Shown here: piece by piece, positions 1-39,311 of the stretch | Numbering within the stretch: position 1 is the first letter of the stretch | Layout: the number at the start of each line of letters is the position of its first letter | Origin: a virus | Strand: one strand, 5' to 3' | Length of the DNA: 39,311 nt | Virus record (IMG/VR): IMGVR_UViG_3300028388_001734 | Location: 1 to 39,311 of that record | Translations under genes and position numbers: made by a program | The notes under the pieces: generated by a model | Database searches by the model: none | The model's input: only the letters and a program-made list of their open reading frames with translations | Told to the model about the DNA's origin: nothing

Positions 1-2715
1 TGGGCGCAGATGCGGGTGGAGGAAGCTGGTGGCACTACATACAGCCTGACCGCTGACACGCAGACCTACACGCAAGTTGGGGTGTCTGCCAGCCTGACTG
101 TCTCTAGGTCCCTGTCGGCTGACGTGCAGGCATACACTCAGACAGGTGTGGCTGCGTCCCTGCTGCGGGCATACACGCTGACAGCGGACACGCAGTCATA
201 TGCCCTGACTGGCGTGGATGTCGTCCTGTCTCGCGGGTTGGCCCTTATCGCGGACACCCAGACCTACGCGCTGACCGGGGTCACGACGCCAGTAAATTAT
301 GCGCGCATCCTCGCGCTGGATCAGGCATCGTTTGTCCTTTCCGGGGTTGCCGCTGACCTCGATTTTGCGCTGAACCTACCAGCAGACACGCGCAGCTACG
401 CCTTGACTGGCGTGGCTGCTGCCATTCAGGCGGGCCGCTCCCTTGCCGCCGACACCCAATCCTACTCGCTTGCGCTCGTAGACGCCGATCTGACGGTCGC
501 GCGCAGCCTGACGGCAGACACACAGACCTACGCGCTGACTGGCGTTTCGGCAGCGTTCCAGACAGCGGAGGTCATGGGCGCTGTCGTCGGGACGTTTGTT
601 CTGACCGGGAACGACGCCCTCTTCGACAGGACGGTTGGAGCAGGGGCCGGGTCATACTCGCTGACGGGAGTGGACGCGACTTTAACGAAGTCCATCGAAC
701 TTCCGGCAGATGCCCAAAGCTACACGCTGACGGGCGTAGCCGCGACATTCTCGCGCGCCCTTTCGCTCGATGCGGAGACCCAGACGTACCTCCTTTCCGG
801 GGTGGCGGCGGAAATCAGCATCCTCGGGTCGCTCGTCGCAGACACCCAGACCTACACGCTTGCGCTCGTTGCCGCAGAACTGGAGCGCGGGATCGTCCTG
901 ACGGCAGAGGCCCAGAGCGCCTCTGTGGCCGGTCAGGACGCCTCGTTGACAGTTTCCCGGTCGCTGGGTGCCGAGACGCGGACCTACGCCCAGACCGGCC
1001 TCTCAGCGGCCCTGACGGCCTCCCGCGCGCTGTCGTGCGATACGGCCTCCTACACGCTTTCGCCCATTGATGCGACGTTCTCGCTCGGGCTGTCGCTTGA
1101 TGGCGCTACTCGGACCTACTCGCTTGCGCTCGTAGACGCGACATTCAGGCGCGCGCTTGTGCTGGGGGCAGATCAGCAGACCTACGCGATTACCGGGGTC
1201 GCAGCCGCCTTCCAGACACAGGGTAGCCTAGCCGCTCTCCCCCGGTCCTACACGCTGACAGGCGTCAATGCAGACCTGACCGCATCGCGCCTTCTAGGCG
1301 CTGACGTGCAGGCATATGCCCAGACCGGGGTCGATGCCCTCTTCGACCCGGTTCTGAATGCCACCCAGCAGACCTACTCTCTTACACCCGTTGATGCAGG
1401 GTTCACTGTCGGCTCCGCTCTCGACGCGGATGCTCAAACCTACACGCTGACCGGGATTGACGCCGCGCTCGAACTGCCGCGCGAAATTGCAGCGGACACC
1501 CAAACCTACTCGCTGACTGGCGTTGATGCTGAGTTCTCGGTGATCGGCGCTCTGGTCGCTGACGCTGGCTCCTTCACGCTGACCGGGGCCGATGCGGCTC
1601 TAACGCGAAACTTTGAACTGGCGGCTGAAACCCAGTCCTACTCGGTTGCCACCGTCGATGTTGGCTTCGTCAGGCAGGAGGTTCTGGAGGCTGACACCGC
1701 TGGCTACTCGCTGACTGGGCAGGACGCCCTGTTCGAGTTTTCCGGCATCTTTGACGCTGACACGGGAAGCTACGCGCTGACGCTCGTTGACGCGACGGTC
1801 GGGCGGAACCTGCTGTTCAGCGTTGACGCAGCGTCCTTTGACTGGGCGGGGACCGGGACCGGCCTGTTCTACGACATCGCGGTCAACTGGCTCCTAGATG
1901 AAACCGACGATGAACTGGAGGACGAGTACGGGCGCGGCCTCTTCGACGAAGATGCCTACGAACTATTCGAGCAGCCGCTATCCTACACGCTGACCTTCCC
2001 AGAGGCGTCTCTCGTCAAGACGAGCATCGACCTCGTTGCAGACGTGGCATCGTTCACGCTTTCGGGTGTCAGCGCAGACACCCTGAAGCACTCGGCGATC
2101 AACGGCGAAACGCAGGTCTACGAGCGCAGCATCGAGGATGTCGAGTTCGACTGGCCGATGCGTGTTGTCTGGGCCTATGGCGGCGTTTTCTGGGCGAATG
2201 GTCAGGCAGCGATCCTGAAGGAAACCAACGAGCCGGTCCTTAGAGACGACGAGACAGACCCGCTTCTGGATGACCTTGGCGCTCCCATCGTTGATGATGG
2301 AGACATCACGAACAAGCGCATCGAGTGTGACACGGCAGAGTTCGACGCCACGTTCGTTGACGCCCTCGTGCGGACCCAGTTCTACGAGGTCATTGCGGAG
2401 AACGTCGCCTTTGACCTGACGCACGTCGATGCCCTCCTCTACGGGAAGATGAACGCGGAGACTGTCACGTTTTCTGTGACGTTTGTGCCGGGCGAGAGGA
2501 TCAACTTCTCCGACATCAACCCGCCGCGCTTCCCAGAGGCGTCAGAGAACCACGCCTCCCTGCTTCTGAGGCAGTCCCAGTCAAGGCTGGTGCATGACGG
2601 GAAGAATGCGGGTATTATCCGGCACCAACAGGACCAAGCCCGCCTGACGCACAACGGAGGCAAGGCCGGGAAGATATGGACAAACCAGCGCACCGCGCGC
2701 CTCGTGGAGAACTGA
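1..2715 (+). CDS. Repetitive phage tail/appendage protein, 5' end probably outside window
   Basis: The protein is built from about 25 imperfect repeats of roughly 22-24 residues around a core like ADTQTYxLTGVxA, covering residues 10 to about 620. A less regular part follows (about 620-830), ending in three short repeats built on QARLxHxG with a GKAGxI link (about 855-900). No enzymatic motif is visible. Such repeat arrays are typical of extended beta-structured virion appendages, so a tail fibre or stalk role is inferred from composition and from the adjacent BppU-like genes. The first ATG is at position 10, but the frame is open to the window edge and no ribosome site precedes that ATG, so the gene probably starts upstream. 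Its stop sits 1 nt before the next ATG. The exact family is not recognised. Confidence 0.7.
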   Translation, partial: WAQMRVEEAGGTTYSLTADTQTYTQVGVSASLTVSRSLSADVQAYTQTGVAASLLRAYTLTADTQSYALTGVDVVLSRGLALIADTQTYALTGVTTPVNYARILALDQASFVLSGVAADLDFALNLPADTRSYALTGVAAAIQAGRSLAADTQSYSLALVDADLTVARSLTADTQTYALTGVSAAFQTAEVMGAVVGTFVLTGNDALFDRTVGAGAGSYSLTGVDATLTKSIELPADAQSYTLTGVAATFSRALSLDAETQTYLLSGVAAEISILGSLVADTQTYTLALVAAELERGIVLTAEAQSASVAGQDASLTVSRSLGAETRTYAQTGLSAALTASRALSCDTASYTLSPIDATFSLGLSLDGATRTYSLALVDATFRRALVLGADQQTYAITGVAAAFQTQGSLAALPRSYTLTGVNADLTASRLLGADVQAYAQTGVDALFDPVLNATQQTYSLTPVDAGFTVGSALDADAQTYTLTGIDAALELPREIAADTQTYSLTGVDAEFSVIGALVADAGSFTLTGADAALTRNFELAAETQSYSVATVDVGFVRQEVLEADTAGYSLTGQDALFEFSGIFDADTGSYALTLVDATVGRNLLFSVDAASFDWAGTGTGLFYDIAVNWLLDETDDELEDEYGRGLFDEDAYELFEQPLSYTLTFPEASLVKTSIDLVADVASFTLSGVSADTLKHSAINGETQVYERSIEDVEFDWPMRVVWAYGGVFWANGQAAILKETNEPVLRDDETDPLLDDLGAPIVDDGDITNKRIECDTAEFDATFVDALVRTQFYEVIAENVAFDLTHVDALLYGKMNAETVTFSVTFVPGERINFSDINPPRFPEASENHASLLLRQSQSRLVHDGKNAGIIRHQQDQARLTHNGGKAGKIWTNQRTARLVEN

Positions 2716-2716
2716 A

Positions 2717-3037
2717 ATGGCTGAAGAGTTCACGATCAAGAGCAACGACACTTCTCCGAAGTTGTTGTACGAACTTGACCTCCTGCCCGGCCAGACGCTG
2801 GTTGGCGCAACAGTCAGGTTCCACATGGCGGAGGCTGACGGCACGGTGGTCGTTGACGCGGCTGGAACGGTGGAAGACGCCGCCGCACAGCAGATCGCAT
2901 ACGCATGGGGCGTCGGCGACACGGCATCACCCGGGACCTACCGCGCGGAGTTCGAGGTCACGTTCAGCGACGGCAGCGTGGAGACCTACCCGAACAGTGA
3001 TTACCTGAAGATTATCATCAAGCCTGACTTGGCGTGA
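2717..3037 (+). CDS. BppU N-terminal-like small baseplate/tail protein
   Basis: A 106-residue protein that opens with FTIKSNDTSP and has GATVRFHM near residues 30-37, the signature of the N-terminal domain of phage baseplate upper proteins (BppU). In the family this beta-sandwich attaches receptor-binding proteins to the tail. Here the domain stands alone and directly follows the repetitive appendage gene. A structural or adaptor role at the tail tip is inferred from the fold resemblance and position. The start is well fixed by close coupling to the upstream stop. Confidence 0.6.
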   Translation: MAEEFTIKSNDTSPKLLYELDLLPGQTLVGATVRFHMAEADGTVVVDAAGTVEDAAAQQIAYAWGVGDTASPGTYRAEFEVTFSDGSVETYPNSDYLKIIIKPDLA

Positions 3038-3054: not shown

Positions 3055-3378
3055 ATGGCCCAGCCGGAACTCGTCAAGGTGTGGAAGGGTGAACAACTCA
3101 GTCGCACGATCACTGTTTTGGACGAAAGCTACGAGGCTCGCGACCTCTCGGATGTCACCTCGTTCGAGGTAAAGGGGCAGGGCGGATTGTTCGCGCTGAA
3201 CCTTCAGGCCGCTTTAGGCTCCAATCAGGGCGAAGTCACCCTGTCCTCCTCCGCGACGGAGACGGAGTTCGCGGCGACAGGTGTCTACCTCGCCCAGATT
3301 TGGGGAACGCGAGCGACTGGTGTCACGAAGGAAATGCTGGCTGACATCGTGATCGCCGTCATGGAGGTCCCCTCGTGA
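3055..3378 (+). CDS. Second BppU-like small tail protein
   Basis: A 107-residue protein with the plan of the preceding gene: a short N-terminal strand (KVWKGEQLSRTITVLD) and a mid-region DLSDVTSFEVKGQ that matches the BppU-type layout, ending in a strand that would describe an added attribute (EMLADIVIAVMEV). It looks like a diverged paralogue of its neighbour. A GGAGG Shine-Dalgarno sits 8 nt upstream of the ATG. Its end overlaps the terminase start by 4 nt (ATCG/GTGATC context), so the two are translationally coupled. Function beyond virion structure is inference. Confidence 0.5.
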   Translation: MAQPELVKVWKGEQLSRTITVLDESYEARDLSDVTSFEVKGQGGLFALNLQAALGSNQGEVTLSSSATETEFAATGVYLAQIWGTRATGVTKEMLADIVIAVMEVPS

Positions 3379-4928
3379 TCGAGGAACTGAAATACTACCT
3401 CCAGCTTCTGGAGTACCGGCGCAAGATCATTCTTGCGCGGAATGACCTTGTGCATTTTGCCGAGTTCACGATGCCAAGCGTCAGCGCACCGGACGACCCC
3501 AGTCAGAGCAAGTATGTCGCAGCCAGACATCACAGGCTCATGGCGAACGTGGCGATGGACATCGAGCGCGGGGATCGGAAGAAGGTCATCCTGAACACCG
3601 CCCCGCGTCACGGAAAGACGGAACTCTGCACCAAGCGGTTCGCCGCGTGGTACGCCGGGAGAAACCCCGACCAAGATATTATGATCGCGACCTACAACGA
3701 GCGGTTCGCGATGGACTTCGGCAAGGAAGTCAGGGAGATAATGAACTCCCAAAGGTTCAGGCAGGTATTCCCTGACTTCAGCCTGTCCAACCAGTCAAAC
3801 GAACACGTCAGGACATACGCCGGGGGAGATATATTCTTCTTGGGCAGGCGCTCGTCCACCACGGGCCGGGGTGCCAACCTGATTATCGTGGACGACCCTA
3901 CCAAGGACGACCGCGAGGTGAAGTACGACACCTTCAGGGAAGACTGCTGGTCTTGGTTCACCCAGACCCTCTTGACGCGGCGGCACAACGACAAGGCCGC
4001 GATCATGGTGACGCAGACCCGGTGGCACGAAGACGACATCGTGGGCCGGATCACCGACAAGACGAACCCGGCGTATTCGGCGCGGTTCGCAAGAGGGTTT
4101 GAAGTCATCAACCTCCCGGCAATCGCGGAGGACAACGACCCTCTTGGCAGGAAGCCGGGGGAGGCCCTGTGGCCCGAGCGGTTCGGCGTGGATTACTTGG
4201 AGGAGATGCGCGAGGCGAACGCCCTATCCTTCGCGGCCCTGTACCAGTGCGACCCGACCCCGGAGGATGGCGTCTACTTCCGCTCCGAAGAATTGCACGA
4301 GTACGAGACTGCGGAACTCCCCCAAAACCTGCGGATGTTCGTGGTCTCTGACCACGCGGTTGCCACCAAAAACTACAACGACCCCTCTGTCCTTGTCCCA
4401 TTCGGGATCGACGAGAACGGCACGGCATGGGTAATGCCGCAAATCGTCTGGCGGCGCATGGACGCGCAGGAGACGGTGGAAGAGATGATCGCCATGATCG
4501 ACCACCACAAGCCGATCTTCTGGTACGCTGAGAAAGGCCACATCTCTAAGGCAATCGGCCCGTTCCTGAAAAAGCGGATGGAAGAGGAGGGTGTCTACTG
4601 CCCCATCATCGAGGAGCAGCCGGTTGGAGACAAACTCCAGCGCGCGCACTCGGGAAGGGCACGATGCGCCCAAGGCAAGATACGCTTCCCGAAGTCAGCG
4701 CCGTGGTGGTCGCGTGCGAAGTCAGAAATGCTGAAGTTCCCGAACGGGCGCTACGATGACTTCGTTGACGTGATTTCGATGATCGGCATGAAGCTGACGA
4801 CGCACACCCAGCCGGGCAGGCCGCAAGTCATTCATAAGGACAAGCCGGGCACGTTCGGCCACCTGCTAAAGCAATTCCGCGAGCAAGACCGCCTAAACCG
4901 CGCCCGGAAAGAGCGCGCTGGCTGGTAA
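3375..4928 (+). CDS. terL: Terminase large subunit (DNA packaging ATPase/nuclease)
   Basis: A 517-residue packaging motor. The ATPase half has Walker A APRHGKT (residues 76-82) and Walker B LIIVDDP (169-175). The C-terminal RNase H-like nuclease half shows the expected acidic triad: D326 (VVSDHA), E386 (WYAEKG) and D465 within DDFVDV. Length and layout fit the Terminase_6 type. It docks on the portal and cuts and pumps the genome. The start is a GTG at 3375 overlapping the upstream gene, in step with tight operon packing. No recognisable small terminase precedes it in this window, which is unusual because TerS normally lies immediately upstream. Confidence 0.95.
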   Translation: MIEELKYYLQLLEYRRKIILARNDLVHFAEFTMPSVSAPDDPSQSKYVAARHHRLMANVAMDIERGDRKKVILNTAPRHGKTELCTKRFAAWYAGRNPDQDIMIATYNERFAMDFGKEVREIMNSQRFRQVFPDFSLSNQSNEHVRTYAGGDIFFLGRRSSTTGRGANLIIVDDPTKDDREVKYDTFREDCWSWFTQTLLTRRHNDKAAIMVTQTRWHEDDIVGRITDKTNPAYSARFARGFEVINLPAIAEDNDPLGRKPGEALWPERFGVDYLEEMREANALSFAALYQCDPTPEDGVYFRSEELHEYETAELPQNLRMFVVSDHAVATKNYNDPSVLVPFGIDENGTAWVMPQIVWRRMDAQETVEEMIAMIDHHKPIFWYAEKGHISKAIGPFLKKRMEEEGVYCPIIEEQPVGDKLQRAHSGRARCAQGKIRFPKSAPWWSRAKSEMLKFPNGRYDDFVDVISMIGMKLTTHTQPGRPQVIHKDKPGTFGHLLKQFREQDRLNRARKERAGW

Positions 4929-4943: not shown

Positions 4944-6632
4944 ATGGAATACGTCAACGCGGACACGAACGAGGCGAACGACGCCCGCCGGGCCAAGGTC
5001 AAGCAACTTACCGACATGGTTCGTGACGACCTGAAGCACTGGGAATACGCCTTCAAGCGTATGCGGAAATGGCGCGAGTTCGCCCGTGGCCTTCAGTGGC
5101 CGGGCATGTCCAAGGAGGACCTCGCCGACGCAGACAGGGAGTACGTCGCCAACATCACGATGCGCCATTTGAAGCAGCGCACGGCGTCGATCTACGCAAA
5201 GAACCCCAGCTACGTCTGGCGGAAGTCACAGCGCATGACGCGCACCGTCTGGGACGGCACGGCCCAGCAGCTTCAGATGGCGCAGATGATGGTGCAGGGC
5301 GGCATGGACATGACCGGCATGTACCAGATGATCCTTCAGGACGCGATGCAGAGCCGCGCCCAGAACGAGGCGCTGGATAAGGTCGGCGAAACGATGTCGA
5401 ACCTGTACTCGTACTTCCTGCGCGAGCAGATGCCTCCGACCAAGATGATGATGAAGAAGCAGGTCCTGACCTCGCTGACCTGCGGGGTCGCCTACTTCAA
5501 GCAGACCTTCCAGCGCGTCACCGACTATCCGCCTGAAGTCAGCCGGGCTATCCAAGACCACATGGCGGAAATCTGGGATCAGGCCGACAACCTCGTGTAC
5601 ACGATCTGCGACGGCTACCCCGACTATCTGGAGGAGCCGCACGAGCCGATCACATACACCGAGCGGTTCTATCCTTGGTTCGTCTATGCCCCGAACGCCG
5701 TTGATGACCCTGACGATCCGTTCCCGCCCTCTGACGTGGAACTGATGCAGCCCATGCAGATGGAGATTAACCGTTCCGGGGAGGCGCTGCGTCAGCACCG
5801 CTACGCCGCGCGCCCGGGCTGGGTCTCCGGCTCGAACCTTCCAGACGAGGACGTGATGAAGATCGAGGCGCGCTCTGCGCACTCGCTCGTGGTCCTGAAG
5901 TCGCTGACGCCAGACGAGGACGTGCGGGCCAAGTTCCAAGCGTTCCCAACGTCACCAATCGACATGAACCTGTACCAGACCTCCACGGCGTTCACCGACA
6001 TCCTGCGCTCTGTCGGGACGCAGGAGGCGAACCTTGGCGGTACATCGAACGCGACGGCGACGGAAACCTCCATCGCGGAGAGTTCGCGCCAGTCAACGCT
6101 GACGAGCGCCATCGACGAGTTCGACGACCTTCTGACCGAGATGGCACGCGCTGGTGGCCAGATACTGCTTCAGGAGATGTCGCAGGAGCAGGTCAAGATG
6201 ATCGTCGGCCCCGGCGCTGTCTGGCCGGATCAGTCTCGCGAGGATGTGGCGCGGGAAATCCACCTAGAGGTGGTGGCTGGCTCCTCCGGGCGACCCAATC
6301 AGGCGCAGGAGGTTGCCATCATGGAGCGGGTCTACCCGCTGCTGTTCCAGCTTCCCGGCATCAGCTACGAGCAACTGGTGCGCCACGGCGTCAAGGTCCT
6401 TGATGACAAGGCTACCTATGAAGACTGGGTGGATATGACTTCCCTGCCGATCATGGCGCTGAACGGCCAGATGCAGGCCACCGCAAACCGTGGCGAGGGC
6501 GAAGAGGGTGACAACGGTCAGGGTGGCGGGGACAACGCCGAACGTCCTGACCAGCCTCAAGGCGAAGGTGGTGCCGCGCCGGGCCAGCAAGGGTTTGGCC
6601 CGGCAATTCAGGGACCACCCATGTCGCCGTGA
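4944..6632 (+). CDS. Portal protein
   Basis: A 562-residue protein directly after the large terminase and before the scaffold. It begins with an acidic helical segment (residues 1-55), contains the WREFARGLQWPG-type motif of podoviral portals near residues 43-54 and a long helical middle, and ends in a disordered Gly/Gln/Pro-rich tail (about 525-562). The family forms the dodecameric ring at one capsid vertex through which DNA is packaged and ejected and to which the adaptor binds. The call rests on order, size and this weak motif match. An AAGGAAG ribosome site precedes the ATG. Confidence 0.85.
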   Translation: MEYVNADTNEANDARRAKVKQLTDMVRDDLKHWEYAFKRMRKWREFARGLQWPGMSKEDLADADREYVANITMRHLKQRTASIYAKNPSYVWRKSQRMTRTVWDGTAQQLQMAQMMVQGGMDMTGMYQMILQDAMQSRAQNEALDKVGETMSNLYSYFLREQMPPTKMMMKKQVLTSLTCGVAYFKQTFQRVTDYPPEVSRAIQDHMAEIWDQADNLVYTICDGYPDYLEEPHEPITYTERFYPWFVYAPNAVDDPDDPFPPSDVELMQPMQMEINRSGEALRQHRYAARPGWVSGSNLPDEDVMKIEARSAHSLVVLKSLTPDEDVRAKFQAFPTSPIDMNLYQTSTAFTDILRSVGTQEANLGGTSNATATETSIAESSRQSTLTSAIDEFDDLLTEMARAGGQILLQEMSQEQVKMIVGPGAVWPDQSREDVAREIHLEVVAGSSGRPNQAQEVAIMERVYPLLFQLPGISYEQLVRHGVKVLDDKATYEDWVDMTSLPIMALNGQMQATANRGEGEEGDNGQGGGDNAERPDQPQGEGGAAPGQQGFGPAIQGPPMSP

Positions 6633-7803: not shown

Positions 7804-8907
7804 ATGTCTATGGAAGGCTTCAGCGCAGGGCAGATCGCCCACGCGCAGGCAACCGGCCTCGATCACTACGTTCGCGGCAAACTCTTCAACTCGGGTATCC
7901 AAGAGAAACCCGTCCTGTCCAAGTTCGAGAACTCGGCGAAGACGCTGAATGTCCCCGGCAACGAGAACATCAGCCTTGGCGTCAAGTTCGAGACCGGCGC
8001 AGGTGGCTCCAACGATGGCGTCACCGGCTTCAGCCATACCGACACGGTGAACTTCTACAACCCGGGCAACGGCCTCCGTGCCAACTATGTCTGGCGTGAA
8101 CACCACATCGGTATGACCATGAGCGAGACCGAACTGAAGCGCCACGGCATTCTCGTGGACGACAAGTTCGACGGGAAAATTCGTCGTCGCGGTGATCGCG
8201 GCCTCGAAATCCTCGCGAACGTCCTCGACGAGGCTCTGGCTGACTTCACCGAGCAGTACGCTGACACGATGAACACCCTGATCTGGGGCGATGGCACGGC
8301 TGACACCTCCGCGCTCCACGGCCTGCGGTCGTTCATTCTCGACATCCCCACGCTGGGGACTGTCGGCGGTCTGTCGAACGTGACCTATCCCGCTTGGCGC
8401 AACCGCGCCTACACGGCGGCGTTCGCTGGCGATGTGTCGTTTGACGCGGCGCATGGCGGCGACAGGATCACTTCGGCTGCGGCCAACGGTGGCGCTCTGG
8501 TGCAGGTTCTCCAGAACGAGTGGCGTCAGCTTCGCCGGTATGGTGGCCGTCCCGATATGTTCGTTGCGGGTTCTGACTTCATCGACGCGATGGAAGTCGA
8601 GATGCGCGCGAACGGCTACTACAACGATAGTGGCATGACTGGCCGTCAGGACGCCGCGATGGGCGACCTGTACTTCAAGGGTGTTCCGGTCGTCTACGAC
8701 CCCACCCTCGACGACCTGTCGCGGTCGAAGTTCGCCTACATCTGGGACAGCCGGGACATCTACCTGATGACCCTCTCGGGCGACTGGCGGCGTCAGCGCA
8801 CGCCTGCGCGTCCCTACAACCAGTTCGTGTTCCACCAGTCGCTGCTCTGCACGGGGCAGATGGTGGCTCGCCGCCGGAACTCGGCGCTGGTTATCGAAAT
8901 CGCGTAA
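7804..8907 (+). CDS. Major capsid protein
   Basis: A 367-residue protein immediately after the scaffold gene. It has the plan of an HK97-fold capsid subunit: an extended N-terminal arm, a helical region around residues 115-160 with an acidic face, a central domain, and a C-terminal beta-rich part containing the FAYIWDSRDIYLM strand pair (near 310-322). Codon use is more regular than in its neighbours (many GGC and ATC codons), as expected of a highly expressed gene. A strong hairpin follows directly after the stop. The exact capsid subfamily is not certain from sequence reading alone. Confidence 0.85.
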   Translation: MSMEGFSAGQIAHAQATGLDHYVRGKLFNSGIQEKPVLSKFENSAKTLNVPGNENISLGVKFETGAGGSNDGVTGFSHTDTVNFYNPGNGLRANYVWREHHIGMTMSETELKRHGILVDDKFDGKIRRRGDRGLEILANVLDEALADFTEQYADTMNTLIWGDGTADTSALHGLRSFILDIPTLGTVGGLSNVTYPAWRNRAYTAAFAGDVSFDAAHGGDRITSAAANGGALVQVLQNEWRQLRRYGGRPDMFVAGSDFIDAMEVEMRANGYYNDSGMTGRQDAAMGDLYFKGVPVVYDPTLDDLSRSKFAYIWDSRDIYLMTLSGDWRRQRTPARPYNQFVFHQSLLCTGQMVARRRNSALVIEIA

Positions 8908-14738: not shown

Positions 14739-15628
14739 TGGCGACCTCTCCCTACAACAACCCGATGTTCGGTCAGTCCCTTGCGGGGCTGATCGACAGC
14801 TTTGTGGGCAACCCGCAGCAGGCGGCACAGGCTGAACTGATGGCAGCGCAGGCGCTGAACGAGAACCTGACTGCGCAGTACCGGCAGGCCATCGGCGACA
14901 CTGGTCTCTCCGGGGACCTATCCTCCATGATGATCCGCTCGCTTCAGGCAGGCCCTGACTACGCGAGGGTGGCCCCGACGATTGGGGACAACGCCCTGAA
15001 GTACGGCACTATGGGCTTCGGTAGCCCCGAACTGACGCCTGCACCCGGGTCTCTGGCCGACACCTTCATCCGCAACCTGATTACGCCACCGGCCCGTGGT
15101 GGTGGTGGTGGCTCATCTGGCTCTAGCCCGTCCCGTGACCTGACGCAATCGGAGGTTTCGCGCGTCTCCAAGCGCATCACGGAGGCTGGTTTCGAGGGGC
15201 AGGATGCAGTTTCTGTCGAGGCAAGGATCATGCAGGAGTGGAACACGGGCAAGTATTCCTCTCTGGAAGAGGCTGCGGCGGCGATCCTGCCTCAAGTCAG
15301 CTACACGAACACGAAAGTCGTGGATCAGAACTACGCATGGGAGCCTGAGACCGTCGATGACGGGAGTGGCTCTTGGCTTGGCCTCGCTGACGACACGCTG
15401 CTCTCCAATGTCTTCGACATGTTCCGTGGCCCCGAGATGGGGCCGGAACTTAGCCTGCCGCCCTTGGAGCAAGAGACGCCACAGCAAGGTCCTGCTTCTG
15501 GACTTCCCGAGGGGGAGACGGAGGAGAGCGTTCTGGAGCAGGCAAGAAAGGCGATCAGGGACGGCAAAGACCCTGAAGGCGTCAGGGAGGCCCTACGCGG
15601 TTACGGCATCGACCCGGGTAAACTCTGA
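14738..15628 (+). CDS. Internal virion protein, ejection module (296 aa)
   Basis: The ATG at 14738 overlaps the upstream stop (TGATG), with GGAAGGG 9 nt before it; an in-frame GTG at 14720 is less likely. The protein is helical with Ala/Gln-rich stretches (residues 25-55) and a Gly/Ser linker (about 115-128). An acidic C-terminal section contains a PEGVREALRGYGI helix near the end. No known domain is recognised. Position between the gp14-like and giant genes makes it a likely ejection-complex component. The last codons overlap the next start (TGATGG). Confidence 0.5.
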   Translation: MATSPYNNPMFGQSLAGLIDSFVGNPQQAAQAELMAAQALNENLTAQYRQAIGDTGLSGDLSSMMIRSLQAGPDYARVAPTIGDNALKYGTMGFGSPELTPAPGSLADTFIRNLITPPARGGGGGSSGSSPSRDLTQSEVSRVSKRITEAGFEGQDAVSVEARIMQEWNTGKYSSLEEAAAAILPQVSYTNTKVVDQNYAWEPETVDDGSGSWLGLADDTLLSNVFDMFRGPEMGPELSLPPLEQETPQQGPASGLPEGETEESVLEQARKAIRDGKDPEGVREALRGYGIDPGKL

Positions 15629-27268: not shown

Positions 27269-27691
27269 TCAGACATGGCTAACTACCGTAAATTCGTTGA
27301 AGTCGATTTCGCAGACAGGCTCTTGGTCCGCGCTGTCGCCACGGTCAGTGCGCCCGCCGTGGACGACAGGGTATGGCGGGTTGATGCGGTGCGAAAGGAT
27401 GGCGTCATCAAGCGCCGCCACCAGTATGACCGGCAGTCCTGTCGCTCGCAGAGAGGTCAGGGAAGCAATCTTCCCCAGCCCGATGTGCAGCGTCGGGTAC
27501 TGCCCCATCTTGATCTTCCGTCTTTTCACTTCGATCAGCGCCTTGGCTTCGCTGCCCCTGTAGGCCACAAGATCGCATGGATACATCCTCGGGAGTTGGC
27601 GCATGTCGCAGCGCCACGCCCTTTCAAGAGCCAGAGCAACATCCCGCTCGTTGGCCCTGTCCTGCTGCGTCTCGTAGACTGGTCGGTTCAT
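27269..27691 (-). CDS. Small PD-(D/E)XK-type nuclease
   Basis: A 140-residue protein with the core of a PD-(D/E)XK nuclease: a helix with E15, then D40 (PCDLVAY), and E54-V-K56 (ALIEVKRRK), spaced as in Holliday-junction resolvase-like and VRR-type enzymes. A strand-helix-strand tail follows (LPVILVAALDD). It overlaps the integrase stop by 4 nt, so the two genes are coupled. Likely role: resolving or trimming branched DNA in phage recombination or integration. The substrate is not visible from sequence. Confidence 0.65.
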   Translation of the reverse strand: MNRPVYETQQDRANERDVALALERAWRCDMRQLPRMYPCDLVAYRGSEAKALIEVKRRKIKMGQYPTLHIGLGKIASLTSLRATGLPVILVAALDDAILSHRINPPYPVVHGGRTDRGDSADQEPVCEIDFNEFTVVSHV

Positions 27692-28710
27692 ATGCCCCTC
27701 GCCTCTGCGATGCCGAGCAGTTCGTCGGCGGTGTGGTGCCGGTAGACCCTGTAGATCGTCCGCAAGTCAGTCGCAGTCAGCTTCGACACGTCACCCGGGG
27801 GGACGCCCTGACGCAGCATCGACGTGATGGCGGTGTGCTTCAGAACGTGCGGCGTCACCCACTCGTAGCCGATGCTGCGCATGAATGCCTTGAAGACCTT
27901 GGGCGTGTTGCGCTCGCAGACCCAGCCACCGCCTTGGAAGGCGGCAGACAGGTCATCGCGGATCGTGCGTGTCATAGGCACCACCGGGCGGCGCTTGCGG
28001 TTCGTGGGCTTGCCCGGGACGTTGAAGTTGATGGTGTTGGTCACGAAGTTCACCATCGCCCCGTCATAGCGCAGGTCCATGATCGCGCCACGCCGCACCC
28101 CGTAGGTCAGGGCGAGGCGGGTGAAGATGCGGACACTGACTGGAGCGTCGTGGAGAGCGTCCAGAACCTCGCGCTCCTGTTCAGCAGTCAGCCACAGGTC
28201 CCGCACGGCGTCGTCGGACGGCTTCTCGAACCGGAAGGGGCGGTTGGCCCGGATCAGGTCCTTGCGCAGCGCCCAGTTCAGCACGGCTTGCAGCGCCACT
28301 ATCTCGCGCCGGATGGTCGATGGCTTGACCTTCTTCGGCCCGTACTGCCCACGGGACCGGGCGCGGCTGTAGGACTGCACGTCAGCGTCACTGATGGACG
28401 CGGCAGGGGCTTCACCAAAGGCACCAACTGGCGCACGAAGAACGCGCCTGTCCGTGATTTCGTTGCCCCTCGGGCGGGAGTGCTGGCGAATGTAGATTTC
28501 CACAACGTCAGCGAAGGAACGCTGGTCGCGATCAATGTCCACGGCTCGCAGGGTCAGAAACTCGGCCAGCGCCTTCTCGGCGTCACCACGGTTCTTTGCG
28601 CGCGAGGAGCGGCGGCGTGACCGCCACTCCCCGTTGCGCAGTTCCGACCACTTGATTTCGTAGAAGCCGTGTTCGTTCGGCTCCTTGGAAAGTCGAGGGA
28701 AGGTTCTCAT
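27688..28710 (-). CDS. int: Tyrosine integrase
   Basis: A 340-residue site-specific recombinase. N-terminal arm-binding and core-binding domains precede the catalytic domain: R206 (YGVRRG), H288-V-L-K291-H and nucleophile Y323 in RVYRHH. Two canonical positions differ: the HxxR arginine is lysine (K291), and the usual LGH reads LTA, a pattern known in a subfamily of alphaproteobacterial prophage integrases. It should recombine attP, 0.56 kb away, with a host tRNA-Ser gene. The start overlaps the XRE regulator stop (ATGA), so it is expressed with that gene. Confidence 0.95.
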   Translation of the reverse strand: MRTFPRLSKEPNEHGFYEIKWSELRNGEWRSRRRSSRAKNRGDAEKALAEFLTLRAVDIDRDQRSFADVVEIYIRQHSRPRGNEITDRRVLRAPVGAFGEAPAASISDADVQSYSRARSRGQYGPKKVKPSTIRREIVALQAVLNWALRKDLIRANRPFRFEKPSDDAVRDLWLTAEQEREVLDALHDAPVSVRIFTRLALTYGVRRGAIMDLRYDGAMVNFVTNTINFNVPGKPTNRKRRPVVPMTRTIRDDLSAAFQGGGWVCERNTPKVFKAFMRSIGYEWVTPHVLKHTAITSMLRQGVPPGDVSKLTATDLRTIYRVYRHHTADELLGIAEARGI

Positions 28711-29096
28711 ATGTGCGGCCTCACAATCTGGATCACATCAAGGGCAACATCGGTAGGCAGGTCCACGTCGAGCGTCAGGTGGCTCGTTGACTTGCCCTTC
28801 GGTTCGAGGGTGACGCCGGAGCCAACGCGCTCTGTCGGGTCCTCGCTCGGGAATAACTCGGCGTAGGGAACCCCAAGCGCCTCCGCGATCATTATTCTGG
28901 TAGAGTGCGTCGGGTACGTTTGGCCAGCCAAGTACCGGCCAAGCGTCTGCCGGTTTCGCGCGACCGTGTAGCCGCGCTCGTCTACCATTTCTCCCCAAAC
29001 CTTTCTGGCCAGATCGGCCTTTGTCATGTGCTTCTCGTCCAAGAGCCTCTGTAGTCTCGACGGGAACGCCTTGTCTTTTTTATTGATCTTTGGCAT
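28707..29096 (-). CDS. XRE-family helix-turn-helix regulator
   Basis: A 129-residue protein with a Cro/CI-type HTH (about residues 12-72: RLQRLLDEKHMTKADLARKV, a 14-residue insertion, then NRQTLGRYLAGQ and MIAEALGVPYAELFP). The C-terminal 55 residues have no peptidase or dimerisation domain that I recognise. The start is placed at ATG 29096, because the longer frame upstream runs through a hairpin and has no homology-like content. A GC-rich hairpin and a 10-bp palindrome lie just upstream. Being coupled to the integrase gene, it is a candidate lysogeny repressor or excision control factor. Confidence 0.75.
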   Translation of the reverse strand: MPKINKKDKAFPSRLQRLLDEKHMTKADLARKVWGEMVDERGYTVARNRQTLGRYLAGQTYPTHSTRIMIAEALGVPYAELFPSEDPTERVGSGVTLEPKGKSTSHLTLDVDLPTDVALDVIQIVRPHI

Positions 29097-29103
29097 GTGC
29101 CCC

Positions 29104-29120
29104 GGCGGCGGTGAGCCGCC
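29104..29120 (-). promoter_or_regulatory. Leader hairpin upstream of the XRE gene
   Basis: GGCGGC and GCCGCC form a 6-bp stem around GGTGA within 8 nt of the XRE start. The stem lies next to the weak GGGG ribosome site and could modulate initiation. Confidence 0.4.
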
Positions 29121-29144
29121 CCCCCTTTGGTGGTTGTGTCCTAC

Positions 29145-29173
29145 AAGATGCGCATCCCCCGCCCGCATGTCAA
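29145..29173 (-). promoter_or_regulatory. Possible XRE/integrase promoter with palindromic operator
   Basis: On the minus strand a perfect TTGACA -35 (29173-29168, overlapping the stop of the zinc-finger gene) is followed after 17 nt by CATCTT, a poor -10. A perfect 10-bp palindrome GATGCGCATC (29147-29156) overlaps the -10 region, as an operator for autoregulation would. A TTGGTG hexamer lies at 29127-29132 on the other strand. Confidence 0.4.
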
Positions 29174-29355
29174 GATGAAATGCTTTTGCCCGGCCCCATG
29201 TGCCGCTCGACGGTGATGGTTTTATATCCGCTGCCGTGGCACTCCCAGCACTTCTCCCAAGTCGTCTTGCGCTGGTAGCTGTCGTAGTCTCCAAGAATGC
29301 CCTCGCCACCGCAGCGGCGGCAGTAGTCGCTCTTGTCCGTGATGGTCTCAGTCAT
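29170..29355 (-). CDS. Small protein with DnaJ-type double zinc-binding motif
   Basis: A 61-residue protein carrying two CxxCxGxG motifs, C12-RR-C15-GGEG and C36-WE-C39-HGSG, the zinc centre of the DnaJ cysteine-rich domain. It has no J-domain or substrate-binding part. Stand-alone versions occur in phage early regions, but their role is unsettled. It overlaps the HU-like gene by 8 nt and is followed by the XRE promoter. Likely a small zinc-stabilised protein-protein or protein-nucleic acid adaptor, which is inference. Confidence 0.65.
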   Translation of the reverse strand: MTETITDKSDYCRRCGGEGILGDYDSYQRKTTWEKCWECHGSGYKTITVERHMGPGKSISS

Positions 29356-29929: not shown

Positions 29930-30298
29930 TCAGGCACCGAGCGGTGGGATGTAGACACACAGGACATGCCGCCACGGGTTCAGGCAGACGTGGTAGTTAT
30001 TGTCCTGACTTTGGCGCAGTCGCGGGTTGCCGTGTTCGACGAACCGCTCGATCCGCTCCTGTCCCTCGGCGAGCATCGGGTGGGTGCCCGGCTCGACCAC
30101 CACCAAGAAACCGCCCTCGACAGCCTTGACTGCGCTGGGGTCTACCGGGGCACAGTCACGATCAGAGCAGCACGCCGCGTCGTACCACTCGTGAGCGTTG
30201 GCCTTGCTTGGGATGATCGCGAACACCAGCAGCGTCAGCATGATCCAGAGGCAGGCACCGATGATGACTGCGGGGATGATGTACCAGCCGGGCCTCAT
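29930..30298 (-). CDS. Exported Cys-rich protein (122 aa)
   Basis: A hydrophobic N-terminus (residues 8-30) ending in SKANA-HEWYD, a clear signal-peptide cleavage site near residue 35, or an anchor if uncut. The mature part opens HEWYDAACCSDRDCAPV, with four Cys in total near the front and two more in the C-terminal half (HVCLNPW and HVLCVYIPP). This opening occurs in phages and genomes of alphaproteobacteria, with unknown function. It lies inside the recombination operon, coupled to the recT stop. It may alter the envelope of the host during lysogeny. Confidence 0.6.
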   Translation of the reverse strand: MRPGWYIIPAVIIGACLWIMLTLLVFAIIPSKANAHEWYDAACCSDRDCAPVDPSAVKAVEGGFLVVVEPGTHPMLAEGQERIERFVEHGNPRLRQSQDNNYHVCLNPWRHVLCVYIPPLGA

Positions 30299-31251
30299 GC
30301 CGCATCCTCCGCCGCTCTACGGGCCTCGAACCAGCCCCCGGCCCAGTTGGAGAACTCCGGGTTGGACCTGTAGGGGTTGGCCTCGTACTCCTCGCCGCTC
30401 TGGAACGCCTTGACGCCCTCGGAGAACTGATCGTCGCCGGGGAACACAAGGTCCTGCTCGAACTCAGGCAGCGGCTCGTCCACCGGCTCGTCACTGCCCT
30501 TCGCTCGCTCCACAGCCAGCCGCTCCAGCCTCTCCTGCGTCGTCTCGGGCGGCGTCACGTCCTTCATGGGGACCTCTTGGAAGGTCGGGTCAGCGGTGAC
30601 GCGGTTGTAGTCCTCGGTGGACATGGGCAGTCGCTTGCAAAGCGCCCTGACTGCCGTCTTCCGGGCCATCTCGTCGTACCAGTCCTTCCAGATGCCGGTC
30701 GGGCTGTCCCCCCTCTGGTTCGGGGATGCCTTGCGGCGCTTCTCGATCTGTTCGAGCGTCATCACCTCGATTTCCTGCGTGCCGTCCTTCAGCTTGGCGG
30801 CAGCGTAGGCCCCGATGACTTCACCGCCGCGCTTCAAGGCATTCAGAGGGGTGCCGTCATCGTTGATGTGATCCCAAGTGCGCGCCCCGTCCACGATCCT
30901 GAAGATGATCTGCTCGCCCTCGTACACCACGTCATCCCAAAGGGACGCGACCTGCCCTGAGTTGCGGGCGATCTTGCGGAGGCCCGACACCATAGGCTGG
31001 GCCTGTGCCTTGCCGCCGTAGATGACAATCGCCGCTTCCCGCCCGTCAGGCATAAGCCCTGCGCCAGCGATATGACGCAGCGCCGTGAACACGCTCTCCG
31101 GCGTGGCGTTCCTGAGTTGCGGGTTGGTTTGGAACGCCACGATAGCGGCGTTCCTGAACTGCTCCGGGTTGACGGTCGAGGGGAGAGCCAAGTCACCCTT
31201 CTCCAGCATCACCCCAAGCGTCCGTTTGAAAGTCGTAACGTCAGTACCCAT
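30295..31251 (-). CDS. recT: RecT-family single-strand annealing protein
   Basis: A 318-residue protein matching the RecT plan: N-terminal helices, LRHIAGAGLMPDGREAAIV (about residues 67-85), a central YGGKAQAQPMVSGLRKIARNSG stretch cited by position (78-99), KLKDGTQEIEVMTLEQIEKRR near 153-173, and DEMARKTAVRALCKRLP (190-206). It binds and anneals complementary single strands exposed by the neighbouring exonuclease. GAGGAG precedes the ATG. The C-terminal acidic 90 residues are less conserved, as usual. A TTGGTG-type repeat lies in the gap before it. Confidence 0.9.
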   Translation of the reverse strand: MGTDVTTFKRTLGVMLEKGDLALPSTVNPEQFRNAAIVAFQTNPQLRNATPESVFTALRHIAGAGLMPDGREAAIVIYGGKAQAQPMVSGLRKIARNSGQVASLWDDVVYEGEQIIFRIVDGARTWDHINDDGTPLNALKRGGEVIGAYAAAKLKDGTQEIEVMTLEQIEKRRKASPNQRGDSPTGIWKDWYDEMARKTAVRALCKRLPMSTEDYNRVTADPTFQEVPMKDVTPPETTQERLERLAVERAKGSDEPVDEPLPEFEQDLVFPGDDQFSEGVKAFQSGEEYEANPYRSNPEFSNWAGGWFEARRAAEDAA

Positions 31252-31286: not shown

Positions 31287-32267
31287 TCAGTCAGCAGAAT
31301 TGGGGAACATCCCCGCAGCCTGTTTCTCCTGAAGCTGCTCCGCCTCGTAGGCAGAGGTGTAAGTCAGGATGTTATCGGCTGGCCCGGGCCAGTGGCCCGT
31401 CTTCATGCACTCGGCGAACTGGTCAAGCGCATGACGGACCTTCAGCCTCGCCCAGTACAGCGCGTCGTAGTCAACCTCTACAGGCATGACGTGATACGGA
31501 GGCCCCTTGTAGACGAAGATCAGCACGGCGCTTCGGCCCGCGTATTCTTCAGCGGTAAAGGGAACCCCGACCACCTTCTCCAAGGCAATCGTCGCCAAGC
31601 CAAGTTGCATGTCATAGCCCCTCTTGCGCACGTCACGAAGAAGCAGGGCCGGGTCCTTCTGCCGCGTGGTCTTCAGGTCCGCGAAGTCACCAGTCGAGGC
31701 AAGCACGTCGAGGCGCGACTTCAGCCACACCCCTGTCTTCTCGTCCTGCCAGATGAATGACTGCTCGACCTGCCCCTCCAGAAGCAGCGGCACGATTGGG
31801 TGCGCCTCCATCACCCGAGCCATGCGCTCGATGTGCGTCAGGTCCGCGTAAGACAGAAGGTCTCTGCCAGCCGCCTCTGCTGCGAAGGCGTCCCAGAAGT
31901 CAAACCGCTCCTTCGCGCTGTCCGAAACGCGGCCTTGCAGACGGGCAGAGATTTGTGCGGTAGTGGGCTTCGGTGGCGCATCAATCGGAACAACGGCAAA
32001 TTTTTCGCTGAACACCTCGTCGCCCAGCAGTAGCGCGTGCGCCGCCCGTCCGAATGTGAAGGCATCGCTCCCCTCCCTCTCGTACCTGTCCTCGTTCAAG
32101 TCACTGTAGGCCCAGAAGTCAGCCGGGCTTTCGTGGTAGATCGTGCGAAGGCCAGTCGAAGAAATCGACGGGCCAAGGCAGGGCTGCGCGTGATACCAGT
32201 CCATCGACATGGAGTAGATACCGTCTTCGGTGACGACCTCGCCGTCCTGAATGTTGATCGGCTCCAT
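31287..32267 (-). CDS. recE: RecE-like exonuclease (PD-(D/E)XK)
   Basis: A 326-residue protein with the exonuclease VIII/DUF3799 layout: N-terminal SISSTGLRTIYHESPADFW (residues 34-52), FGRAAHALLLG with H77, E-rich helix, then SRLDVLASTGDFADLKTTR with D187, D197 and K199 forming the D...(D/E)xK site. It degrades one strand from double-strand ends, supplying single strands for RecT, and the two genes are adjacent. The catalytic domain is complete, while E. coli RecE has a long extra N-terminus missing here. Overlaps the upstream gene stop by 1 nt. Confidence 0.88.
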   Translation of the reverse strand: MEPINIQDGEVVTEDGIYSMSMDWYHAQPCLGPSISSTGLRTIYHESPADFWAYSDLNEDRYEREGSDAFTFGRAAHALLLGDEVFSEKFAVVPIDAPPKPTTAQISARLQGRVSDSAKERFDFWDAFAAEAAGRDLLSYADLTHIERMARVMEAHPIVPLLLEGQVEQSFIWQDEKTGVWLKSRLDVLASTGDFADLKTTRQKDPALLLRDVRKRGYDMQLGLATIALEKVVGVPFTAEEYAGRSAVLIFVYKGPPYHVMPVEVDYDALYWARLKVRHALDQFAECMKTGHWPGPADNILTYTSAYEAEQLQEKQAAGMFPNSAD

Positions 32268-32760: not shown

Positions 32761-33189
32761 ATGAAACACATCCTTGATATTTACGGCCTGTGGCCGTCGA
32801 TAGGTGAGATGGCTCGCGACCTTGACGAGGCCCCGAGCGAACTCCTTAGCCGCCGGGAGGACGGGGACCTGCCCGATCCCCGGCATGACAACCGTATCCT
32901 GATGCGCGCCATCTATATGGGGAAGTATCTCCGGCAGGCCCACCTGACTGAGATGCGCAGGCGCAGGCAGATGCGGCCCTTCGCTGACGAGAGGCGGGAG
33001 GTCATAGGTGAGTTTTTTGACGCGGCTGGTGGCTTGAGCCTGCTCGCGCACAAGGTCGGCTCGACACCAAACGCTCTGCGGGTGGCCAAGAACAGGGCGC
33101 GCTTGCCTCGCAAGCTGAAACACGAGTTGATGACTATCGCCCAGCAGATCGACTACCCGCTGGACGACGAACTGTTCGAGGCCCTGTAA
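32761..33189 (+). CDS. Two-HTH regulator at the head of the replication operon (142 aa)
   Basis: Two helix-turn-helix-like halves: residues 1-50 (HILDIYGLWPSIGEMARDLD, then SELLSRREDGDLPDPR, which reads like a Cro-type recognition unit) and residues about 80-125 (GGLSLLAHKVGSTPNALRVA). It is basic in the middle (LTEMRRRRQMR). The start at ATG 32761 is preferred, since the longer frame runs through the triple repeat and has a low-complexity Gly/Ala leader; ATG 32749 overlaps the -10-like box. It lies between the divergent repeats and helicase, so it is a candidate Cro- or CII-like regulator. Confidence 0.65.
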   Translation: MKHILDIYGLWPSIGEMARDLDEAPSELLSRREDGDLPDPRHDNRILMRAIYMGKYLRQAHLTEMRRRRQMRPFADERREVIGEFFDAAGGLSLLAHKVGSTPNALRVAKNRARLPRKLKHELMTIAQQIDYPLDDELFEAL

Positions 33190-34571
33190 TGGGGGAGGTG
33201 TATATCCCCGAGTTGGAGCAGGCAGTCATCGGCGCTGTCCTGCTCGACAACGAACTCATGGCAGCGGGCGTCGGGGTCAAGGCAGATTGGTTCCATGACC
33301 CGGGCCATCGGGAAATCGTGGAGGCTGTATCCCGTCGCATCGCTGATGGGCGGGAAGCCACCATGCACAACATTGCGTTTGACTTGAAGGCATCGCGCGC
33401 CGTCGAGGCCCTTGGCGGATCAGCGTATCTCGCCAAGCTGCTGGGCACGGCATCCCGGGCAGGCTTCAAGGATAACCTGATCGAAGTCAGGAACCTGTGG
33501 GTTAGGCGCACCCTGTCGCAAGAACTGCGACAGTCGCTGGAGAGCATCGAGAACTTTGACCAGTTTGCCGGGGTCGAGGATACCATCTCAGGGCTGGAGA
33601 GAACTGTCGCAGAATTGGCGACGGTCACGTCACACCAGCCGCTGGTCGAAGGCGCAGAAGATGGCCTGCTTGGCGCTCTCCGCCAGTCTGCGGACGCCGT
33701 GAATGCTGGGGGCGTCGTTGGTCTATCGACGGGCATCGGCAAGCTGGACACCCTGATAGGTGGGTTCGGCCCCGGTGACATGATTACGCTGGCCGGGCGT
33801 CCGTCGATGGGCAAGACAGCCATCGCCCTGACTATGGCGTGGCGCGCTGCCATGTCTGGCAAGGGCGTGTTCTTTGCTTCGCTGGAAATGCAGAAGGAAC
33901 AACTCTGGCATCGCTTCCTTGCCTTCGCGACTAATGACGAGGGCAGTGGCATTCCCTACTTCGACATTAGGTCCGGTCGTATCTCCGAGGAGCAGGGCGA
34001 GAGGTTGAAGCAGGTCGCTCTCAGTCACCGCTCGATCCCGTTTATGACTGCGGAGAAGCGCGCCCGGAACCTGACGATGCTCCGGGCCGCTGCCAAGCGG
34101 TCTGCGTCAGTGTTCGAGAGGCAGGGCACGCCGCTGGGCTTGGTGGTCGTGGACTACCTTCAGCTAATCGAGGGAGACAGCAGGTGGTCGGATTACCAGC
34201 GCGTCAGCGCCGCCTCGAACGCCATCAAGTCCCTCGCTCTGGACCTTGGCGTCCCGGTCCTGTCCCTGTCGCAGCTTAACCGTGGGGTGGAGATGCGCGA
34301 CCCGCCCATGCCCCGCCTGTCCGACCTCAGAGAGAGCGGCAAGGTCGAAGAGGACAGCGACGTGGTGATACTTGCTTTCCGCGATGCCTACTACCTGTCG
34401 AAGAAGCTGGAGGACATGAGCCTCGACCATGACACGCGCATCGAACTGGAGGCGCAGTTGGCTGACTTGAGGCACCGCTGCCAGCTTATCGTTGCCAAGG
34501 CACGCGGGGGTCCGACAGGCTCTGTCACGATGGGCTTCCGCCCCGAGACGAACTACGTCTGGGACTTGTGA
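33189..34571 (+). CDS. dnaB: Replicative DNA helicase, DnaB family
   Basis: A 460-residue hexameric helicase. N-terminal DnaB domain (residues 1-100, opening IPELEQAVIGAVLLD), linker, then RecA-like ATPase with Walker A GRPSMGKT (203-210), SLEM (231-234), Walker B VVVDYLQL (319-326) and LSQLNRGVE near 357. The C-terminal section keeps DLRESGKVEEDSDVV. It should unwind the phage origin after loading by the neighbouring initiation proteins. Starts in a TAATG overlap with the regulator gene. Length is typical. Confidence 0.95.
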   Translation: MGEVYIPELEQAVIGAVLLDNELMAAGVGVKADWFHDPGHREIVEAVSRRIADGREATMHNIAFDLKASRAVEALGGSAYLAKLLGTASRAGFKDNLIEVRNLWVRRTLSQELRQSLESIENFDQFAGVEDTISGLERTVAELATVTSHQPLVEGAEDGLLGALRQSADAVNAGGVVGLSTGIGKLDTLIGGFGPGDMITLAGRPSMGKTAIALTMAWRAAMSGKGVFFASLEMQKEQLWHRFLAFATNDEGSGIPYFDIRSGRISEEQGERLKQVALSHRSIPFMTAEKRARNLTMLRAAAKRSASVFERQGTPLGLVVVDYLQLIEGDSRWSDYQRVSAASNAIKSLALDLGVPVLSLSQLNRGVEMRDPPMPRLSDLRESGKVEEDSDVVILAFRDAYYLSKKLEDMSLDHDTRIELEAQLADLRHRCQLIVAKARGGPTGSVTMGFRPETNYVWDL

Positions 34572-36428: not shown

Positions 36429-36434
36429 ACACCG

Positions 36435-37254: not shown

Positions 37255-37257
37255 GCC

Positions 37258-37443: not shown

Positions 37444-37487
37444 GGTTCTTTCCTCTCTCTCGAAACCGGGGCTTGTCCCCGCCAATA

Positions 37488-37519
37488 CGCCCCCCAAGCG
37501 CCAAAAGCACCGGGGGGCG
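37488..37519 (-). promoter_or_regulatory. Hairpin holding a GGTGC/TTGGCG repeat in its loop
   Basis: CGCCCCCC (37488-37495) and GGGGGGCG (37512-37519) form an 8-bp stem. On the minus strand its 16-nt loop holds most of the pair CCGGTG (37513-37508) and TTGGCG (37504-37499), 9 nt apart, a divergent member of the motif family. Confidence 0.4.
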
Positions 37520-37529
37520 CATGGACAAG

Positions 37530-38390: not shown

Positions 38391-38393
38391 GTG

Positions 38394-39311
38394 TCAGCCC
38401 TCCACCTGCGCGACCTGCTCGGGCTTCAGCCCGGAGAGGTAGGTGAGACGCGCCGCAGTGTCAGGATGCACGCCGTTCGCCAGCAGAGCCGCGCCCGCGA
38501 CCGATGCCCGGGGCGAGATGACAATCTTAAGCCCAGCCTCGCGCGCCTTCTGGCGGGCCTTCTGGACGCGACGCGCCCAGTCAGGATTTCCGCAGATGTC
38601 CTGCTCCAGCTTGTCGTCGTAGTCCCACGCGATGCGGACCCCGAACCGATCAAGGAAAGCGGCATCCAGCTTCGCGCGTCCAACGTAGTCAGCGCCAGCG
38701 CCGACGCCCCATGTGTTCGCGGCGGCGATGCAAACGAAGTCAGGGTGACGCTGGATCATCTCGCCGTCAGGGGTGGCCATGAAGCCATTTGCGAGCGCGG
38801 CGTTAAGCGCGAGCAAGGCTTCGCTCGATCCCGCGTCAACTTCGTCCAGCAGGCAGACGCCGCCCAGCCGAAAACGCTTCACGAATTGGGTTTCGTGATA
38901 TTTGCCGCCAGCGTCAACAAAGCCGGTGAGTTCGTGCGCCATAGTCATCGCGCCATGCGCGCCAAATTCGAGGCCCAGCGTATCGGCCACCTGCTTCGCG
39001 CCGTATGTCTTGCCCGACCCGGCGGGGCCGGTGATCCAGACGTTAAGGCGGTTGCCAGAGGCATCACGCGAGGCAACAGCAGTCAGCAACGTCTCGGCCA
39101 TCGGATGACGCACGCTCGGCAGGTCCGCGCCCAGCGCGGCCCCGTCGCGGTCAACGCAACGGATGACCGGCTGACCGATCCGCTCCATCACCGGCGCGAG
39201 AGCCTCGGAGACAATCGCTTCCACCTGCGCGCGGTCCACAGTCCCGCCCAGCACGCTGCGGAGCATGTCCAGAGCCTGCGCGGCGTCAGGGGCGGCGGCA
39301 GGGGCCGGGGC
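38394..39311 (-). CDS. CobS/MoxR-type AAA+ ATPase, 5' end outside window
   Basis: The reading frame is open through the right edge, so the N-terminus is missing; the first ATG inside is 39266. From there: Walker A GPAGSGKT (residues 80-87), Walker B LLDEVDA (139-145), sensor 1 AAANT (181-185) and an arginine finger in FLDRFG (R208). The TWGVGAGADYVG stretch after sensor 1 fits the CobS/MoxR group, which remodels partner complexes by ATP hydrolysis. Seen in phages with a VWA-type gene next door, as here. The substrate is unknown. Confidence 0.88.
   Translation of the reverse strand, partial: APAPAAAPDAAQALDMLRSVLGGTVDRAQVEAIVSEALAPVMERIGQPVIRCVDRDGAALGADLPSVRHPMAETLLTAVASRDASGNRLNVWITGPAGSGKTYGAKQVADTLGLEFGAHGAMTMAHELTGFVDAGGKYHETQFVKRFRLGGVCLLDEVDAGSSEALLALNAALANGFMATPDGEMIQRHPDFVCIAAANTWGVGAGADYVGRAKLDAAFLDRFGVRIAWDYDDKLEQDICGNPDWARRVQKARQKAREAGLKIVISPRASVAGAALLANGVHPDTAARLTYLSGLKPEQVAQVEG

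Follow-up and report, generated by a model that had tools for sequence, protein, structure and literature searches.

In this work we have investigated the recognition sites of restriction enzymes in a phage DNA stretch of 39,311 bases (62% GC), the complete IMG/VR record IMGVR_UViG_3300028388_001734, which has no host genome attached and is referred to below as the window. GANTC, the site of the methyltransferase CcrM, does not occur in it at all, and the sites of some 40 further specificities are missing as well. We conclude, with a probability of about 0.8, that the window has been purged by selection from many orthodox Type II restriction systems, that is, systems with palindromic sites. 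According to this model, the recognition sites of about 40 such enzymes would have been removed, largely via synonymous choices; where a site is gone there would be no cut, and incoming unmethylated phage DNA would survive in hosts which possess those enzymes. A large number of host strains would have exerted this selection. The absences, their enzyme-like specificity, the loss of GANTC throughout most of a phage clade and the turnover of the other sites within it are direct observations, and they are described first.

An earlier note on this DNA had claimed that GANTC is completely absent, and the exact count agrees: GAATC, GACTC, GAGTC and GATTC each occur 0 times in the window, whereas 136, 190, 146 and 96 GANTC sites are expected from Markov models of order 0, 1, 2 and 3, respectively. 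We also shuffled synonymous codons within each of the annotated genes, so that every protein and the codon use of each gene were preserved; across 200 such shuffles the mean was 62 sites, and none had fewer than 47. A first shuffle was based on automatically called genes, a few of them wrongly chosen, such as an antisense open reading frame lying over the capsid gene; the corrected set gave the same outcome. The same note had remarked that Asp-Ser and Glu-Ser pairs use AGY codons for serine; this was found for all 34 serine codons which follow Asp or Glu, against a background in which TCN makes up 454 of the 642 serine codons of the window (71%), a pattern with a chance of about 7e-19. The two remaining codon frames able to form GANTC also contain none. 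Codon usage as the cause of the losses is ruled out by the synonymous shuffles.

How far does the loss extend beyond GANTC? As an unbiased test we took all recognition sites of REBASE (Biopython copy) which are expected at least 8 times in the window. Absent were 40 of the 136 palindromic sites and 3 of the 387 non-palindromic ones, two of these three being subsets of GANTC and GAGCT, so the loss is concentrated in orthodox Type II sites. The strongest absences are those of CCWGG (0 against about 167 expected), GANTC, GAGCT (0 against 70), GGCGCC, CGGCCG, GCCGGC, CCGCGG and CGATCG. Taken together, 42 listed motifs, picked after the absences had been seen, occur once (a single RGATCY) compared with about 900 occurrences, and at least 822, in the synonymous shuffles; no shuffle had a run of more than 689 bases without any of them, whereas in the phage such a run spans essentially the whole window. 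Judging by this completeness, the phage does not seem to have recently gained any foreign DNA of appreciable length that had not been purged. The 64 six-base palindromes as a whole occur 197 times, compared with 659 times in the synonymous shuffles (minimum 608). The suggestion of the earlier note that the phage was purged under selection of the restriction type is thus well supported, but its focus on GANTC alone was too narrow, since about 40 further words are equally absent.

The losses have the specificity of enzymes. GACN3GTC does not occur (0 against 18 expected), while the same arms are found 17 times at a spacer of 4 bases, 18 times at 5 and 15 times at 6. CCWGG is missing, whereas CCSGG is enriched (213 against 118 expected). 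Degenerate sites are empty as sets: GRGCYC, which includes the non-palindromic GAGCCC, has 0 of 60 expected occurrences and YACGTR 0 of 22, and RGATCY has 1 of 42, its non-palindromic members being lost too. Counts of zero were also found for GAAN4TTC, GCTNAGC, CCTNAGG, GGTNACC, TCCNGGA and CACN4GTG. Other palindromes are retained, namely GCGCGC (62 observed, 51 expected), CGCGCG (37 and 41), CCCGGG (30 and 27), TCGCGA (21 and 17) and TGCGCA (16 and 15). This specificity for spacer, word and degenerate set argues for many specific enzymes cutting and not for a general aversion to palindromes. The earlier note had held that a similar loss of many unrelated palindromes would speak against its reading; many are indeed gone (40 of 136), yet the losses track enzyme specificities.

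To see these absences in context, we compared the window with its relatives, which were found and ordered by means of the major capsid protein. Two of them are cultured phages, Microcystis phage Mae-Yong1326-1 (50% identical in the capsid protein) and Rhizobium phage RHph_N65 (38%). Related capsid genes occur on hundreds of contigs, including a Rhizobiales genome (288 kb contig) and Pseudovibrio (746 kb contig); others lie in Vibrio and Phycisphaerae assemblies, possibly through contamination or misbinning. A megablast of bases 1–24000 of the window against cultured phages gave no match, and a viral scan with the terminase protein gave no confirmed relative. In 61 of 75 clade loci GANTC stands at less than 10% of expectation, with a pooled ratio of observed to expected counts of 0.07. 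After GANTC, loss is most widespread for GGATCC (36 of 50 loci) and GGGCCC (35 of 53); for most other sites it is limited to a minority of the loci. The GANTC ratio is two-peaked: among 153 loci, which include Sinorhizobium phage phiLM21 and overlapping loci of some records, 70 have values under 0.02 and some 47 fall in the range 0.2–0.8. Three records (G058, G060 and G030) have lost GANTC and little else.

The other sites are lost in sets which vary between relatives. In locus L002, with a capsid protein identity of 88%, GCCGGC, GACGTC and GGCGCC are still present, all three being missing from the window; conversely, TGCGCA is retained in the window and absent from L002. In this closest relative 0 of 15 sites are conserved, a barely informative figure, as the two share 72% DNA identity and only 16–22% of their matched hexamers are conserved. 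In an equal-length comparison of palindromic REBASE sites with an expectation of at least 10, where a site counted as eliminated if it stood below 0.1 of expectation, the window eliminates 35 of 124 sites and ranks first among 59 sequences. The eliminated fraction is 0.22 and 0.21 in the clade members G022 and G029, 0.16 in T7 and 0.04 in lambda, with a median of 0.07. Some relatives have peculiarities of their own. GTAC is absent or nearly so in L002 (0 of 24 expected), L006 (0 of 27), L008 (0 of 40) and L010 (1 of 20); the window keeps 95 of 113. L008, which is Mae-Yong1326-1, has 72% GC, no GANTC (0 of 60) and little CACTG (3 of 55), and is recorded from Microcystis. Microcystis itself has a low GC content, and the true host of L008 may be an alphaproteobacterium living with the Microcystis culture. 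L012, contig_9 of Vibrio hannami KACC 19277 (47 kb, 59% GC), has a capsid protein identity of 75% and a GANTC count of 1 against 61; it is a contig of its own, and contamination or a plasmid-like prophage is possible.

We hypothesize that these patterns reflect two layers of selection. In the first, the loss of GANTC over most of the clade would point to one lasting pressure within an alphaproteobacterial host range, presumably from restriction enzymes which cut GANTC or longer sites that include it and which could readily spread in hosts whose CcrM already shields the chromosome. In the second, the remaining sites would have been lost in phage-specific sets, matching restriction repertoires which differ by host and over time. 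From the patterns we infer that restriction enzymes are responsible, which hosts were involved and that there is a link to CcrM. For GANTC we likewise favour restriction as the driver, held less firmly than for the other sites. The link to CcrM and alphaproteobacteria drawn by the earlier note gains support at the level of the clade, where GANTC is the sole near-universal loss and the known hosts are mostly alphaproteobacteria, and CcrM itself or a GANTC endonuclease is a candidate for the cause.

Could a phage of this clade also deal with GANTC cleavage by methylating the site? It may be that each of them either encodes its own N6-methyladenine (m6A) methyltransferase or loses the site, which would tie the loss of GANTC to restriction. 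Among near-complete clade records, the site is kept, with a ratio of 0.2 or higher, in all 7 carriers of a clear MT-A70 or phrog_799 gene, compared with 14 of the 47 non-carriers (Fisher p 0.0007), and the proven GANTC methyltransferase of phiLM21 (PMC5537653) belongs to phrog_799. Carriers of any methyltransferase have eliminated slightly fewer sites overall (p 0.009, uncorrected for relatedness). On the capsid tree the label of GANTC kept or lost switched at least 8 times, yet 6 of the 7 carriers fall into one subclade which mostly keeps GANTC, and the association is suggestive only, because the carriers are phylogenetically non-independent. When two weak matches are added, the phrog_799 carrier G068 has a GANTC ratio of 0.14; in several GANTC-keeping records no methyltransferase was found, and carriers of PF01555 show no trend with GANTC (p 0.57). 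The enzymes of the carriers are moreover assigned by family, with GANTC as their putative target. We therefore rate this explanation as a serious candidate at somewhat less than even odds. The window itself, as the earlier note had said, has no methyltransferase gene among the six families searched (PF01555, PF05869, PF00145, PF05063, PF02086 and phrog_799), in a record which probably lacks part of the genome; its near-complete relatives are mostly 45–53 kb.

An alternative for GANTC is the biology of CcrM itself. The host CcrM would methylate GANTC sites in the phage DNA and GcrA would bind them, so that they came under cell-cycle control; a phage which escapes the notice of this system would fare best, and the loss of the other sites would be ordinary restriction avoidance. 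In keeping with this, no site but GANTC is lost over most of the clade, and it is lost even where little else is; the alphaproteobacteria, in which CcrM is an orphan enzyme, have genomes about 2-fold depleted of GANTC (PMC3973325); and pelagiphages and a SAR11 prophage are depleted of the site without a known restriction system (PMC9516812). However, a twofold depletion in hosts cannot account for 0 sites against 96–190 expected. Regulation alone should spare sites deep within genes, and none survives; in the window, GANTC behaves like 40 sites which have no role in the cell cycle. We consider this alternative rather unlikely, if still one to be kept in view.

CcrM-like orphan enzymes can protect a cell against endonucleases whose sites match theirs or are longer (PMC3488263), so that nucleases of this kind would be able to spread with no methyltransferase of their own. 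Perhaps alphaproteobacteria commonly carry or exchange solitary endonucleases which cut unmethylated GANTC or longer sites that include it, CcrM, which is essential for the cell cycle, taking the place of the partner methyltransferase. We regard this as doubtful. It would explain both the clade-wide loss of GANTC alone and the m6A methyltransferases in some GANTC-keeping phages.

It is very improbable that the losses arose without restriction, through a mutational bias or a general avoidance of palindromes or hairpins. Short palindromes are depleted as a class, those with 3-bp arms at spacers of 0–3 (ratio 0.27 at spacer 0) and normal from spacer 5, and control words with reversed, non-complementary arms show no depletion. 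However, some palindromes stand at or above expectation, gapped sites are lost at a single spacer, non-palindromic members of degenerate sites are lost too and the lost words differ between relatives; general avoidance of palindromes or hairpins was rejected on the specificity for spacer and word. That the sequence is an artefact or synthetic, recoded DNA, as the extraordinary completeness of the purge might suggest, can practically be dismissed, as independent metagenome contigs and cultured clade phages share the GANTC loss together with other site sets.

Several points weigh against a purge by many Type II systems. The REBASE comparison, and not the list of 42 motifs, is the test to trust. 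No restriction system was matched to any absent site, nor could a host be assigned to the window. In temperate phages elimination is reported to be less complete or rarer (PMC6286503), yet the window carries an integrase, and pelagiphages deplete GANTC though their hosts yielded no restriction system (PMC9516812), so another cause may act. GAGCT/AGCTC is a non-palindromic 5-mer, whose absence is not directly explained by orthodox Type II enzymes. It is nearly absent elsewhere as well, in G022 (locus L047, 2 of 49 expected), G072 (locus L234, 1 of 45) and L010 (0 of 16). Finally, TGAG/CTCA is 3.5-fold low in the window (88 against 307), in every context and on both strands alike, with no known enzyme; in the relatives checked it is near normal or mildly low.

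In a scan of non-palindromic 5-mers over 56 records, GAGCT and CCCAG were the only words eliminated besides those of GANTC and CCWGG. CCCAG/CTGGG is eliminated in L009, the Rhizobium phage RHph_N65 (0 of 29), and in G052 (locus L186, 5 of 82). The losses of GAGCT and CCCAG look like two asymmetric restriction specificities.

What kind of phage is this? The genes recognized in the window, by comparison of their predicted proteins, are as follows.

3375 to 4928, plus strand: terminase large subunit (phrog_38, E 4e-95; best phage match Microcystis phage Mae-Yong1326-1, 45% identity)
4944 to 6632, plus strand: probable portal protein, adjoining the terminase (phrog_156, E 3.8e-05)
7804 to 8907, plus strand: major capsid protein, the basis for finding and ordering relatives (phrog_9953, E 3.7e-32)
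15628 to 22977, plus strand: protein of 2449 residues; judged by its position and size, it probably corresponds to the giant transglycosylase gene of Mae-Yong1326-1 (L008)
23460 to 24092, plus strand: endolysin (amidase; phrog_822, E 1.8e-54)
27688 to 28710, minus strand: tyrosine integrase (PF00589, E 2.5e-09; phrog_1, E 2.7e-39)
28707 to 29309, minus strand: helix-turn-helix repressor-like regulator, adjoining the integrase (phrog_8, E 5.9e-09; phrog_3, E 1.6e-08; PF01381 below cut-off)
30295 to 31251, minus strand: RecT-type recombinase (PF03837, E 2.8e-40)
31287 to 32267, minus strand: PDDEXK exonuclease (DUF3799), the RecT partner (PF12684, E 2.5e-17)
33189 to 34571, plus strand: DnaB-type replicative helicase (phrog_19, E 6e-67)
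38394 to 39266, minus strand, at the end of the record: AAA ATPase near the phage CobS-like family phrog_249

Judging by these genes, this is a tailed phage, of temperate type in view of its integrase and repressor-like gene. The usual motif of tyrosine recombinases is HxLRH; the integrase (27688–28710, minus strand) has HVLKH in its place. In the RecT protein (30295–31251, minus strand) a C-terminal stretch resembles ribosome modulation factor (PF04957, below cut-off).

That phages eliminate sites is well established, the targets being mainly orthodox Type II sites (Rusinov et al. 2018, PMC6286503). Non-temperate double-stranded DNA phages such as T7 show the same near-complete loss of these sites, the non-palindromic ones being mostly spared. 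T7 eliminates 18 of 116 palindromic sites; the window, with 35 of 124, lies above all 58 other sequences compared and has genes of temperate type. About half of 33 pelagiphage genomes are depleted of GANTC, and there too the site is lost in some clades and kept in others, with no matching restriction system identified (PMC9516812). Those cases are pelagiphages, most clearly Autographivirinae, together with a SAR11 prophage, whereas the clade of the window is related to RHph_N65 and Mae-Yong1326-1, and the window has an integrase and has lost about 40 further sites. The phage phiLM21 and its relatives are temperate phages of alphaproteobacteria which deal with the CcrM site by methylating GANTC (PMC5537653). 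In contrast, the window has neither a methyltransferase that we could find nor the site, while phiLM21 retains GANTC at 0.23 of expectation and has eliminated 0 of 102 palindromic sites (30 kb tested). Broad-host-range plasmids also avoid many 6-bp palindromic targets together, which has been tied to their small size and wide range of hosts (Shaw et al. 2023, PMC10359461); the window is a phage, and its losses are near-total and not graded. Site avoidance by phages (PMC6286503) and the GANTC depletion of pelagiphages (PMC9516812) are thus already published, and the window is an extreme new case, unusual in the extent of its loss, its temperate gene set and the clade-wide layer of GANTC loss.

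The absent words can be read as a record of the restriction enzymes which the lineage has met, and so as a readout of the restriction repertoire of its host community and perhaps of its host range. The genome further illustrates the extent to which restriction sites can be removed by synonymous change. The clade offers a natural experiment, in which GANTC was retained or lost several times independently, in phages that do or do not carry a methyltransferase, and the question of why phages of alphaproteobacteria shun the CcrM site therefore becomes directly testable. If solitary endonucleases of the kind considered above were indeed common, CcrM would be the modification half of a class-wide restriction barrier.

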